From the NCBI GenBank assembly GCA_022826005.1, contig JAJDVT010000075.1, forward strand, positions 1-64,000: a stretch of DNA of 64,000 nt, written 5' to 3'. The stretch is from Gemmatimonadota bacterium (GTDB lineage Bacteria > Gemmatimonadota > Gemmatimonadetes > Longimicrobiales > Gaopeijiaceae). A program made the position numbers and the translations under genes. Positions 34,855 through 40,312 of this stretch are shown piece by piece. The notes below the pieces were generated by a model, which worked only from the letters and a program-made list of their open reading frames with translations, did not search any database and was not told the DNA's origin. How positions within the stretch are numbered: position 1 is the first letter of the stretch; each line of letters begins with the position of its first letter.

Positions 34855-35220
34855 CTACTCGGCGTCCGTGCCGAAGACCGTCGCGAGCATCTCCTGGTTG
34901 TGGCCGACCACGAGGGTGGTGCCGACCTTCAACGTCGGGGCGCGGAGCTTGCCCCAGCGGCTGACCATCAGCTTGACCAGCTCTTCATTCGGGGGGCGAT
35001 CCGCAGTCGAGAGGTCCACCTGCACGACCTTCTTCCCCTTGGCGACCCGAAGCTCGGTCATCCCCTCAAGCAGTGTGAGCGCCTCGGCGGTGTGCACGGG
35101 CTCCTTGGCCGCGCTGCGGATCTCCGCGGGCTCGATGCCGTTCTGCGCAAGAAACTCTTGCGTGCGCTTGCAACCGGTTCAGCCGGGGCGGTGGTACCGC
35201 CAGTCGAGGCTCGGGGTCAT
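34855..35220 (-). CDS. Probable selenoprotein, thioredoxin-fold (Spx/ArsC-like) with U-x-x-C, read through in-frame UGA
   Basis: The frame runs ATG 35220 to TAG-class end at 34855 with one in-frame TGA at 35181-35179. Reading it as selenocysteine gives 121 residues starting MTPSLDWRYHRPG-U14-TGC17-KRTQEFLAQNGIEP. The U-x-x-C pair sits where ArsC/Spx/glutaredoxin-type proteins have their redox cysteine, between beta1 and helix 1; the region after it is normal for that fold and ends WGKLRAPTLKVGTTLVVGHN. A hairpin with a G-first loop starts right after the UGA (see separate entry). Without read-through the recognisable protein would begin at residue 42 and lose the active site. A nonsense mutation is the alternative. 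It lies 60 bases after a propeller gene; selA/B/C/D are not in this window. Confidence 0.8.
35146..35181 (-). promoter_or_regulatory. Candidate bacterial SECIS hairpin and its UGA codon
   Basis: After the UGA (35181-35179) there are 23 nucleotides to the loop of a perfect 7-bp hairpin, CGCAAGA-GTT-TCTTGCG (35162-35146). A small apical loop with G in its first two positions, at a distance of 16-37 nucleotides from the UGA, is the published consensus for bacterial SECIS elements, and all three conditions are met. The hairpin lies within the coding sequence, as bacterial SECIS elements do. Confidence 0.75.
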
Positions 35221-35280: not shown

Positions 35281-36540
35281 CTACCTCAAGATAAGCTCGC
35301 GAATCTGCACGCGCTCGACGCCGAGTTCGTCGGTCGCGACGCCGAGAGCATCACCCCGGCTGATCTCCTCGATGCGGAACGAGGCAGGGACGGCCACCCG
35401 GCCGAGGTAGACTCCGTCGGCGGCGAAGACGTCCCAGCGGAGCATCGGCGCGCCCCGGATTGCGTAGCGCACCGCCCAGATCTCCCCGGTATCGGCAAAC
35501 CTCACGTTCGTGTACCCGGGCAAGGATTCCGGCAGGGGCAGCTCACGGTATCTCTCGATCGATTGACGGATCGAAGCCGCGTCGCGCTCGCGGGTTCTGG
35601 AACGCGTCACATACGCCTCCAGGTGTGCATCCGTGAGGACCGGCGGGACTTCGTCGAGGCGCGCGATCATGAGCCGGGAGCCGTCCTGGCCAAAGACGTC
35701 GATCTCGAAGTGCCGGCCGCCCGTGACCGCAACGCCATGCGAAGATCCCGTCGCGGCGGCTCGTGGGGCAAAGGGGATTTGCATCGCTACGGTCTGCGAA
35801 AAGCGGCCATCGCCAAAGTCGCGGATTTCGGCTGACGAGACCGGCGCCCTCCGCTGGATCCTCACCTCCGCCACCGTGTCCACAAGGACCCCGTCGAGGC
35901 CGTGGCGGATGTAGAAGATCGGAGGGTTCAGGTCACCCAACAACTCCCTCATGACGTCCTCGGGTGATCCGGAAAGGGCCAAGGCGTCCGGAGACGGAGC
36001 ATTGAAGGGGCTCGCGCGGCTCAGCAGCAAGCCGGAGCCACCGAGCCCAATCGGAATAATCGTGGCGCGGTCCGGTCCCAGCAACCTTGCGGTGCGGACC
36101 GCCGTCCCTTCCGGGCCGAACCGGGTAATGTCCTGAAAGTCGGCCGCCACGATACTCCCCTCCTCGGCCGGCCAGGCGCCCTGAAGCGATTCGAACTCCC
36201 CCGGACCCTCGCCTTCTCGCCCCAGCGACCGCAGGTGGCGGCCCTCCGAGTCGAATACGCGGATCTCCAGTGCCTGGTTGTCGGCCACGACCAGGTTTCC
36301 CGCCGCATCACGCGCCACGGACTCGATGTCGCCGAAGAGGATTTCCTCCGGCCCGGTGAAGTCGCCGATCGACAACGCCGGTTCTTCAGCCAGCTCCGCG
36401 TAGACGAGGTCGCCGGGCGCGGTGGTGACGACACGGATCCCGGCGGAGTCGGTGACTTCCGTCGCCGGGGAGGAAGTCGCTGCCGGGTCAGCGCAGGCGG
36501 CCATGGCAATAACCAGGCCCGGGAAAAGCAGGTGCTTCAT
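35281..36540 (-). CDS. 6-bladed beta-propeller lipoprotein (tandem pair, downstream member)
   Basis: A 419-residue lipoprotein: MKHLLFPGLVIAMAAC with the lipobox at residue 16, then EVTDSAGIRVVTTAPGDLVY. Blade repeats include VARDAAGNLVVADNQALEIR, GREGEGPGEFESLQGAWP, and the end DELGVERVQIREL. It is a clear paralogue of the gene upstream: the openings and ends are nearly the same and the middle diverges. The binding partner is unknown. It is separated from the upstream gene by 94 bases and from the selenoprotein gene by 60. Confidence 0.8.
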   Translation of the reverse strand: MKHLLFPGLVIAMAACADPAATSSPATEVTDSAGIRVVTTAPGDLVYAELAEEPALSIGDFTGPEEILFGDIESVARDAAGNLVVADNQALEIRVFDSEGRHLRSLGREGEGPGEFESLQGAWPAEEGSIVAADFQDITRFGPEGTAVRTARLLGPDRATIIPIGLGGSGLLLSRASPFNAPSPDALALSGSPEDVMRELLGDLNPPIFYIRHGLDGVLVDTVAEVRIQRRAPVSSAEIRDFGDGRFSQTVAMQIPFAPRAAATGSSHGVAVTGGRHFEIDVFGQDGSRLMIARLDEVPPVLTDAHLEAYVTRSRTRERDAASIRQSIERYRELPLPESLPGYTNVRFADTGEIWAVRYAIRGAPMLRWDVFAADGVYLGRVAVPASFRIEEISRGDALGVATDELGVERVQIRELILR

Positions 36541-36634
36541 CAGGTTCCTCGGGTGTTGGGGTTGCTTACGTCGCCCGGTGACGGCGCCGGCAACGATGCC
36601 GAGGCTCTCCGAACGGCGTTGGCGACCGCCAGGG

Positions 36635-37876
36635 TTACAATCCGTTCAAGGTAAGCTGGCGAATCTGCACGCGCTCCACTCCGAGTTCGTCGGTCGCGAC
36701 GCCGAGGATCTGGCTGCGGCTCACTTCCTCGATGCGGAAGGAAGCGGGCACGTTCACGCGGCCCAGATAGATGCCGTCGGCGGCGAAGACGTCCCAGAGA
36801 AACTCTGTCTCGCCGGTCAAGCGGTAACGCCGCGCCCAGACTTCCCCTTCTTCGGCGAAGAGGATGTCCTCGTACGCCGGTAGCCGGTCCGGCAGGGGGA
36901 CCTGGCGGTATCGTTCTATCCGCTCGCGGATCTCCGCTTCATCGGGCTCGGAGCTTCCGTAGCCGGCGTACCTCTCAAGGTGCTCGTCGGTGCGGACCTC
37001 AGGGGCGTCGTCGAGACGTGCGATCATGCGCATTGACCCGCTCTGGTCGAAGAATCTGATCTCGTAGATGGCGCCGTGCGAAACCACGATGCCGTACGGG
37101 GATCCCGCGGCGATTGACCTGGGCGAGAAGGGAATCGTGAAGGTCATGGCCGCCGCATCACCCACCGCCACGCTTGCCACGGGCGCGTCCCTTCCCTCCG
37201 CCAGGGTATCGACCAGCGCACCGGCCAATCGATGGCGCACAAAAAGGAGTCGGCGGTTTTGCTCCCCACCGAACCAGGCATCCATCATGTCCGCCATGGA
37301 TCCGCCCATATTCTCGAAGTCAGGGACGTTGCGGGGGGAGGCGCGGCTCAGGACCATGTCGGGACCGGCAAGCCCGATGGTAAAGATCCCTCTGAGGTTG
37401 TCCCTCTCGGCAAGCGTCGCCGTTCCGGCCGGGATTCCCTCGCCATCGAACTGCGTGATCCGCTCCAGTATGAGGTCCGCCGCCACGATGCCTCCGTCCG
37501 TGACCGGCCAGGCGCCTTGAAGCGACTCGAACTCCCCCGGACCCTCCCCTTCCCTTCCCAGCGTTTTGAGATGGCGGCCCTCTGGGTCGAAGATGCGGAT
37601 CTCATGAGCCTGCACATCGGCGACGACCAGGTTGCCGGCGGCGTCGCGACGGGCCGACTGGATCCTGCCGAAAAGGAGCTCGTCCGGGCCGCTGAGCTGG
37701 CCGATCGACAGCGTGGGTTCTGCCGCCAGCTCCGCGTAGACCAGGTCGCCGGGCGGGTTGGTGACCACCCGGATTCCGGCGGAGTCGGTGACGGTGGCGG
37801 CGGAAGGGGGTGGCGCGCCGGAGTCGGCGCAGGCGAGGGGGGCGAGCAATGAGACGACAACCGCCGTGCGTATCAT
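36635..37876 (-). CDS. 6-bladed beta-propeller lipoprotein (tandem pair, upstream member)
   Basis: A 413-residue lipoprotein starting at ATG 37876 (MIRTAVVVSLLAPLACA, lipobox LAC); a GTG at 37900 would add eight residues before the signal peptide. TVTDSAGIRVVTNPPGDLVY and GREGEGPGEFESLQGAWPVT match the next gene almost word for word, as does the end DELGVERVQIRQLTL. Divergence is concentrated in the blade faces, as expected if the pair binds different ligands (inference). It follows the BtuB-like gene on the same strand after 98 bases. Confidence 0.8.
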   Translation of the reverse strand: MIRTAVVVSLLAPLACADSGAPPPSAATVTDSAGIRVVTNPPGDLVYAELAAEPTLSIGQLSGPDELLFGRIQSARRDAAGNLVVADVQAHEIRIFDPEGRHLKTLGREGEGPGEFESLQGAWPVTDGGIVAADLILERITQFDGEGIPAGTATLAERDNLRGIFTIGLAGPDMVLSRASPRNVPDFENMGGSMADMMDAWFGGEQNRRLLFVRHRLAGALVDTLAEGRDAPVASVAVGDAAAMTFTIPFSPRSIAAGSPYGIVVSHGAIYEIRFFDQSGSMRMIARLDDAPEVRTDEHLERYAGYGSSEPDEAEIRERIERYRQVPLPDRLPAYEDILFAEEGEVWARRYRLTGETEFLWDVFAADGIYLGRVNVPASFRIEEVSRSQILGVATDELGVERVQIRQLTLNGL

Positions 37877-37974
37877 CGAAATCCGTATCGCGGGGGGCAC
37901 AGTGCCCCGGTTTTCTGGATGGTGCAGCTACCAGAAGGTAGGGTCCCACGCCTGCACACGCTTCAGCAGCCACT

Positions 37975-39966
37975 TCAGGGATTCGGCGCACCTCCTCCGA
38001 GCGCCAGCCTTCCTCCCACGTACACCCCTCTCCCCGGCGCGGCGAATCCCCACACCTCCTCGTACTCGGCGCCCATCAGGTTTTCGGTGCGCACGGTCAG
38101 CACGAAGCCTGGCCTCCCGGCACCCGCGCGGACCACTTCGATCTCCGCCGACAGATCCACCAAAGTGTAGGCCGGCAGCGTTACCGGCGTTGCGGGGTAG
38201 GCGGAGAAGTCGCGATCCCCACGCTCGCCCGTGTGGCGCATACCCGCCTCGAACCGCACCGCTCGCGTCACCTGCACAGACGCGGACACGCCCGCCGTAT
38301 GCTTCGGCCGCCTGAGGAGCGGTTCGCCCGCCACGAAGGCCGCCCCCGGTCCCTCGTGGAACCCTGCGTCAATGACCTCCGTGTCGAGCCACGTGTACGT
38401 CACGGTGAGCCGGCCCGGCCCGGCGTCCACCACGCCCTTGGCCTCCAGCCCCCGGCTCCGCGCCTTCGCCACGTTGTGATAGTTGGGCCCTCCCTGCGTC
38501 GGTGGCGAAGAGGTGTACTGGATGAGGCCGCGGTAGCTCTGGCTGAAGCCGGTGAGCGAAAGGCCGGCGCCGCCGCCGAGTTCCTGATCCACCCCGGCCT
38601 CGAAGCTGGTGGAAAGCTCCGGTTCCAGATCCGGGTTGCCCCTGGTGAAGCCGCTGGCGTAGGTCTCGAGGAAGGTGGGTTCCTTGATCCCGGTCCCGGC
38701 CGCCGCCCGCAGGCGCGTCCGCCCGGAGGGAGGCTGCCACGCCGCCCCGGCCTTCCAGGTGGCCGCGCTGCCGTAGCGCTCGTTTCTCTCGGCCCGCAGG
38801 CCGCCGTTCAGCGCCAACCCGCCCCTCTGCCACGACAGTTGGGTGTACGCGGCGTGGTTTCGACGGTCGTTTTCGGAGCTGGACGAACTGGAACCGTACT
38901 GGGAAAAGGACCGGCTGAACGCGCGGATGGACTGCAGCTCCAGTTCGTATCCGGCAGCCAGGACGGTTCCGTCAGCGGGACGCCAGATGGCGCGCGCGCC
39001 GCCGCCCACGCGGCGAATGTCGTTCAGGTTGGTGTACCCGAAGAATCCCAGGGTGTCGGCCGGACCATCGGGAGAGTCGTCGCTGCCGCGGTCGCTTTCG
39101 TTGACCTCGAAGCTGAGACGGGTCTCGAAAGCGTCGGTCGAACGGCGACCGACTTCAAGGTTCAGGGTCAGGGCGTCGCCGTAGGTATGCGCGTTGCGGT
39201 CGACGAGGGCACCGGAGCCGTCGGTGGGGAAGTGATAGCGGTAGTCGTCATAGCGGATGGTCAGGGCCGCGTCGGAGCGGGGGCCCAGCCGTCCCTGGAC
39301 CCTGCCGGTGAACGTGGATCGACGGTGGTGATTGTTGTACTCGAGAATGCCGTCGGTGTGGTTGCCGCCCAGGGAAAAGGCGTAGGAGAGATCTTCGGTG
39401 CCGCCCGAAAGCGTACCCTGCCAACGGCGTGTGGCGTAGCTGCCCGCCCGTAACGACAGGGTACCCGTGACCGGGCCCGCGCCACGGCGTGTCAAGATCT
39501 GGATGATGCCGCCGACCGCGTCCGATCCGTAGAGCGCCGACGCGGGTCCCCGGATGATCTCGATGCGCTCGATGTTGTCGGTGGACAGCGACCCGAAGTC
39601 GAAGGCGCCACCGGGCTCGTTCACGGCGACGCCGTCGATGAGCACCTGCACGTAGTCGGATTCGCCGCCGCGCAGGAACACCGACGTGACGGCGCCGAAG
39701 GACCCGCCCCGCACCACCGCCACACCGGGCGCGTGGCGCAGCGCATCGGCGACATACTCGATCCCGGCGCGCCGTAGCTCAACGCCCTCGATGACCGTGG
39801 CGTGAGCGGCCACCGTCCAGGCGGGCTCGGCCCAGCGGTTCGCGGTAATAACGAGGCCCTCGAGCTCGATGGGGCCCTGGGCTTCGAGGTGAGTTGGCAG
39901 AAGCGCCGCCACCAGGGTGAAGGTGGCAACGGCGAAGGGGACCGGCGGGATGATGCGATGTGTCAT
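37975..39966 (-). CDS. btuB: TonB-dependent outer-membrane receptor, BtuB-like (cobalamin uptake)
   Basis: A 663-residue receptor. The signal peptide ends near THLEAQ. The plug domain has VTSVFLRGGESDYVQVLIDG, DNIERIEIIRGPASALYGSD and AVGGIIQILTRRG, which is the BtuB/CirA-type plug; the barrel follows, with typical aromatic strands and end. B12 specificity is supported by the cobalamin riboswitch in its leader more than by the protein itself. Uptake needs TonB-ExbBD energy. GGGAGGGAGAGCCAG precedes the ATG. It is the only recognisable B12 gene in the window. Confidence 0.88.
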   Translation of the reverse strand: MTHRIIPPVPFAVATFTLVAALLPTHLEAQGPIELEGLVITANRWAEPAWTVAAHATVIEGVELRRAGIEYVADALRHAPGVAVVRGGSFGAVTSVFLRGGESDYVQVLIDGVAVNEPGGAFDFGSLSTDNIERIEIIRGPASALYGSDAVGGIIQILTRRGAGPVTGTLSLRAGSYATRRWQGTLSGGTEDLSYAFSLGGNHTDGILEYNNHHRRSTFTGRVQGRLGPRSDAALTIRYDDYRYHFPTDGSGALVDRNAHTYGDALTLNLEVGRRSTDAFETRLSFEVNESDRGSDDSPDGPADTLGFFGYTNLNDIRRVGGGARAIWRPADGTVLAAGYELELQSIRAFSRSFSQYGSSSSSSENDRRNHAAYTQLSWQRGGLALNGGLRAERNERYGSAATWKAGAAWQPPSGRTRLRAAAGTGIKEPTFLETYASGFTRGNPDLEPELSTSFEAGVDQELGGGAGLSLTGFSQSYRGLIQYTSSPPTQGGPNYHNVAKARSRGLEAKGVVDAGPGRLTVTYTWLDTEVIDAGFHEGPGAAFVAGEPLLRRPKHTAGVSASVQVTRAVRFEAGMRHTGERGDRDFSAYPATPVTLPAYTLVDLSAEIEVVRAGAGRPGFVLTVRTENLMGAEYEEVWGFAAPGRGVYVGGRLALGGGAPNP

Positions 39967-40127: not shown

Positions 40128-40312
40128 GCGCCGGACGGGCACGTCTCCTGGCTCGAGGCCTCCTGACCCGCCTTCCCGGGATCGTGGGTGGATCCCAGTG
40201 GCGCGCCGGGCAGGGGTTCCGGGTGTTCCCGGACCTCTCACAGTGGCGGGGCCGCGCCGGACTTGCACCGGCTTCCGTTGGCCCCTCCGGCCGATTGGTG
40301 ATGTCGCGAGGA
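40128..40312 (-). ncRNA. Cobalamin (B12) riboswitch
   Basis: Read on the minus strand the leader contains the conserved cobalamin core: GCCGGTGCAAGTCCGGC (40272-40256), then CCCCGCCACTGTGA (40251-40238), and about 85 bases further on the B12-box AGCCAGGAGACGTGCC (40153-40138). Order and spacing agree with Rfam-type cobalamin riboswitches upstream of btuB genes. Adenosyl- or methylcobalamin binding should lower btuB expression. The outer borders are approximate. It accounts for most of the 543-base gene-free gap 39967-40508; the rest holds no other recognised feature. Confidence 0.9.

Follow-up and report, generated by a model that had tools for sequence, protein, structure and literature searches.

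An in-frame UGA at codon 14 of a 121-residue open reading frame is read as selenocysteine (Sec) with a probability that we put at about 0.97, and we are hardly less confident that the protein receiving the Sec is an ArsC/Spx-like one. The gene lies on the minus strand of the window, that is, of the whole 64,000-nt stretch of DNA analysed here. Sec insertion, as proposed in an earlier note on this DNA, is supported by a conserved TGA, a covarying hairpin and the presence of the Sec machinery. The features of the locus are as follows.

34855..35220, minus strand: selenoprotein open reading frame of 121 aa, ArsC/Spx-like, with a UxxC motif (U14-T-G-C17); based on the frame, the NF041106 match and the relatives
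35179..35181, minus strand: in-frame UGA at codon 14, predicted selenocysteine; TGA in 85/85 distinct sequences, aligned with Cys10 of Spx
34855..35097, minus strand: shortened conventional open reading frame with a GTG at codon 42, likely a mis-call without the active site; based on the ORF call
35146..35162, minus strand: bSECIS hairpin that begins 16 nt past the UGA, has a 7-bp stem and a GUU loop, and overlaps the TQEFLA codons; based on shuffles, covariation and published criteria

Reading frame and conservation of the UGA

The frame running from 35220 to 34855 on the minus strand translates as MTPSLDWRYHRPG-TGA-TGCKRTQEFLAQNG... and ends at a TAG, and the translation reproduces the single internal TGA (codon 14, 35181-35179) described in the earlier note. 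Conventional gene calling yields an 80-aa ORF that starts at the GTG at 35097 (minus strand), codon 42, which confirms the statement that an ordinary call begins at residue 42 and misses the active site; Sec-blind annotation would shorten the protein in just this way. The epithet "hidden" given to the selenoprotein has to be dropped, as the family is already catalogued in NCBIfam as NF041106 and the gene is therefore visible to current annotation models.

The existence of the shorter ORF lends some support to the notion of a pseudogene or a sequencing error, on which view the TGA would be a stop that arose by chance, and any working product would be the 80-aa protein. However, TGA occupies the codon 14 position in all 85 distinct sequences (window included), which come from Gemmatimonadota, Planctomycetes, Acidobacteria, Methylomirabilota and others; it is kept down to about 31% identity and is never replaced by TAA, TAG or a sense codon. 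In addition, the N-terminal W-x-Y-x-R-P-G segment ranks among the best conserved of the protein. The notion of a pseudogene or error is rejected because the TGA is universal among the relatives, and we regard it as almost certainly wrong. The comparison of homologues at position 14, which the earlier note had suggested, is thus favourable to Sec, and the unrelated stops or frameshifts at the same place in close relatives that it had named as counter-evidence were not seen.

When the genome contigs were searched with the read-through protein, 39 relatives emerged, each with TGA at codon 14, and no pattern of this search spanned the UGA codon, so the result is not biased towards TGA. The single TGG row in the alignment is a spurious alignment in L128. 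Among 395 genomes of the phylum, each match above the NF041106 cut-off contains exactly one TGA. The phylum also has stop-free matches to this model, all of them weak, with E-values no better than 5.8e-9. Those that were fetched (among L121-L129) gave no tblastn alignment to the gene at E <= 1 other than the spurious row; they are probably other ArsC/Spx-like proteins.

The residues that are invariant in 42 relatives include Y9, R11, U14, C17, R93 and P95. Cys17 is conserved in all relatives but L011, a close one, where (at 1382-1741) UTGY replaces UTGC, i.e. a Tyr stands for the resolving Cys; the resolving Cys may therefore be dispensable, or else the base may be erroneous.

A SECIS-like hairpin within the coding sequence

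Past the UGA, the sequence forms a perfect 7-bp hairpin, CGCAAGA-GUU-UCUUGCG, whose stem begins 16 nt and whose loop begins 23 nt downstream of the codon, with G as the first and U as the second nucleotide of the loop. The perfect stem and the 3-nt loop starting with G had been recognised before, while the distance of 23 nt, given then for the centre of the hairpin, is really that of the loop start. Bacterial SECIS (bSECIS) elements are described as having a loop of 3-9 nt with a G in the first two positions, a stem of 4-16 bp, a spacing of 16-37 nt between UGA and loop and an MFE of <= -7.5 kcal/mol (PMC13188914). The hairpin agrees with this description in its GUU loop, its 7 bp, its spacing of 23 nt and its energy, the MFE being -7.4 kcal/mol when the 17-mer is folded alone, -8.5 for the surrounding 23-mer and -10.1 for a 42-nt window, and its stem covaries, which bears out the SECIS-like character claimed for it. 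An Rfam search around the selenoprotein gene returned chance matches only.

The folding energy is ordinary for the base composition (z about 0 against dinucleotide shuffles); thermodynamic stability is therefore uninformative, and the hairpin was judged by synonymous shuffles and covariation. When the window sequence was recoded synonymously with local codon usage, all 7 pairs survived in 83 of 50,000 recodings. Across 78 sequences, 97.1% of the pairs are formed, as compared with 57.5 +/- 1.3% in synonymous shuffles. In a set of 62 distinct sequences, 96.3% of the stem cells are paired, double-changed stem cells number 29 (5.0 +/- 1.9 when shuffled), and the covariation score is 0.288 (0.139 +/- 0.011 when shuffled). 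Furthermore, versions of the stem with slid partners score much lower, and RNAalifold recovers the same stem unprompted. The hairpin exceeds chance, chiefly on comparative evidence, because of these synonymous-shuffle and cross-sequence pairing results.

Judged from the aligned sequences, compensatory changes keep the stem, and some of them alter the encoded amino acids. At the second pair, replacement of GC by UA gives FLE for FLA; at the fourth pair, replacement of AU by GC, along with a CTT-to-CTC change, gives TR for TQ; and at the last pair, replacement of AU by GC, along with a TTT-to-TTC change, gives G for E. A bacterial SECIS that lies within an ORF would be expected to show such dual coding. 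The last pair is open in five sequences, which, to go by these sequences and the fold of L080, seem to adopt a loop that is a little larger and has G as its second nucleotide.

Shorter TGA-containing relatives (FYQRPGU...) from the genus g73 (L113-L119) are without the CGCAAGA hairpin. The hairpin of this clade is GCACC-CGUGC-GGUGY, with a loop 18 nt past the UGA; its loop, stem and spacing still agree with the bSECIS description, and its energy is weaker. Together, the 78 sequences with compensatory changes and the clade with a differing hairpin offer a large, clean set of coding-embedded SECIS elements from a little-studied phylum.

Selenocysteine machinery and its co-occurrence with the gene

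The genome that contains the window (4.85 Mb, 96.8% complete) encodes a tRNA-Sec with a TCA anticodon (C58:6655-6747, 77.9 bits), as well as selA (contig C3), selB (C95) and selD (C71). All four components that the earlier note had listed for a search of the rest of the genome are thus present. The selD gene (G000:C71:75102-76019, minus strand) has one in-frame TGA in its N-terminal active-site motif GAG-U-ACKLG, and the SelD of this genome is likely a selenoprotein as well because of this codon.

Within the 395 genomes of the phylum, selA is found in 78 of the 79 genomes that carry the TGA-containing gene, as judged by a strong match, versus 212 of the 316 others (Fisher p 3.5e-11, with relatedness ignored), and selB is likewise found in 78 of the 79. 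None of the 79 is without both genes: G339 and G122, which each lack one of them, have the other, and both absences are therefore likely to be assembly gaps. Two genomes of the same genus, G174 and G394, contain selA and selB without a match to the selenoprotein gene, a possible loss or assembly gap.

These data also bear on the possibility that the UGA is read as Trp, Cys or some other ordinary residue and not as Sec, for which nothing in particular speaks. Against it stand the covarying SECIS-like hairpin at the expected distance, the complete Sec machinery that co-occurs with the gene, and the fact that the aligned residue of Spx is a redox Cys; we consider it highly improbable.

Gene neighbourhood

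In close relatives, the selenoprotein gene is flanked by beta-propeller genes upstream and an S9 peptidase gene downstream, and no operon partner is conserved past these close relatives, the neighbours being different elsewhere. The neighbouring genes give no clue to substrate or role. A promoter and terminator scan found nothing. In the window, two adjoining paralogous genes for 6-bladed beta-propellers (DUF5128-like; 35281-37900, minus strand) lie directly upstream of the selenoprotein gene. Further away, a cobalamin riboswitch (40141-40278, minus strand; Rfam RF00174, 72.1 bits) precedes a TonB-dependent receptor gene (37975-39966), an order that suggests an ordinary B12 uptake locus.

Predicted fold and function

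An AlphaFold2 model of the protein, with Cys substituted for Sec, has a mean pLDDT of 93.5. Its closest structure matches are Spx proteins, with a Foldseek E-value of 5.9e-5, while VIA-align to Spx 3ihq_A gives a Z of 8.7 and an rmsd of 2.7 over 88 residues; the TM-scores are modest, near 0.53. A Z of about 8.7 is weak by itself, and the sequence profile, which finds Spx nearest in the PDB with E 4e-13, therefore weighs more. By sequence and predicted fold, the protein is nearest to Spx/ArsC. In the alignment, UxxC coincides with the CxxC of Spx (Cys10-x-x-Cys13), so that the UGA falls on Cys10, in keeping with the proposal that it replaces a redox cysteine.

The preferred reading, which we hold to be probable, is that the protein works as a selenol/thiol oxidoreductase whose active site is formed by Sec14 and Cys17. 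SelB carrying Sec-tRNA-Sec would bind the hairpin just 3' of the UGA, and selenocysteine would then be inserted at codon 14. The product would be a small thioredoxin-fold member of the ArsC/Spx superfamily that carries the Sec14-x-x-Cys17 pair where helix 1 of the predicted fold begins, and the invariant R93-x-P95 (R93-A-P95) loop probably provides the cis-Pro of the fold. Sec14 and Cys17 may act as a redox pair together with this loop, in a catalytic cycle that would pass through a Sec-Cys selenenylsulfide and be completed by reduction with thioredoxin or a low-molecular-weight thiol.

With Sec inserted, the protein could also regulate transcription in the manner of Spx, binding RNA polymerase and sensing redox state with the Sec-Cys pair as a switch. 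The proximity to Spx in both profile and fold comparisons and the position of UxxC at the Spx CxxC point this way, and the Spx/MgsR model (TIGR01617) is also matched by 41 of the 42 members. However, the window protein scores 33.4 bits against the 75.05-bit cut-off of that model, and UxxC selenoproteins are customarily redox enzymes, which makes a regulator unlikely. A bolder variant, which we view as improbable, is a nearly Sec-only branch of Spx/ArsC proteins in which the SECIS dictates the helix-1 sequence, the T-Q/R-E/G-F-L-A/E changes tracking the base-pair changes, and in which the protein would be a selenium redox switch of transcription instead of an enzyme.

A genuine arsenate reductase that uses Sec is likewise improbable. 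It would suit the shared superfamily, the Pfam ArsC match of 20.4 bits and the name "arsenate reductase-like" in the literature, but the Pfam score is under its cut-off of 24, the arsenate reductase model TIGR00014 gives 16 bits against a cut-off of 106, and no ars gene was found in the five neighbouring genes scanned. As to the three arsenate-binding arginines of ArsC, the alignment of the 42 relatives, which covers the protein's own family, shows R11 and R93 as the only invariant arginines. Of these readings, the oxidoreductase is the one that we prefer, and the family lends itself to work on assigning its function.

Comparison with known selenoproteins and with Spx and ArsC

The protein is a further member of an already known selenoprotein family. 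Residues 5-111 of its 121 match NF041106, "ArsC family (seleno)protein" (ArsC_rel_Se_1), at 112.2 bits, where the cut-off is 85, and the same model is matched by all 42 aligned relatives. NF041106 appears in a 2026 review among the UxxC selenoproteins, under the name "arsenate reductase-like protein" (PMC13188914), and an earlier review also includes a UxxC arsenate reductase-like protein (PMC9312934). The window protein shares with the family the above-cut-off score, the match along the whole length, the UxxC and the active-site UGA; nothing distinguishes it, and it is an ordinary member. The selenoproteome of the Global Ocean Sampling contains an "arsenate reductase 2" (cd03032) with UxxC (PMC2398784), which is ArsC/Spx-like as is the window protein and, likened by description, probably belongs to the same family.

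The UXX-star glutaredoxin-like selenoproteins (NF041212, NF047338) also combine a thioredoxin fold with an N-terminal Sec, but they are shorter (about 70 aa) and their match to the window protein is weak and partial. Spx of B. subtilis (PDB 1z3e, 3gfk, 6ghb) has the same fold, aligns over nearly the whole length and has CxxC where UxxC stands here; it differs in having Cys in place of the predicted Sec, at about 20-25% identity, and the window protein is far under the Spx/MgsR cut-off. The glutaredoxin-dependent arsenate reductase ArsC (TIGR00014) belongs to the same fold superfamily and has its active-site residue in the same place, but it relies on a single catalytic Cys, whereas the window protein has UxxC and scores far below the cut-off of that model.
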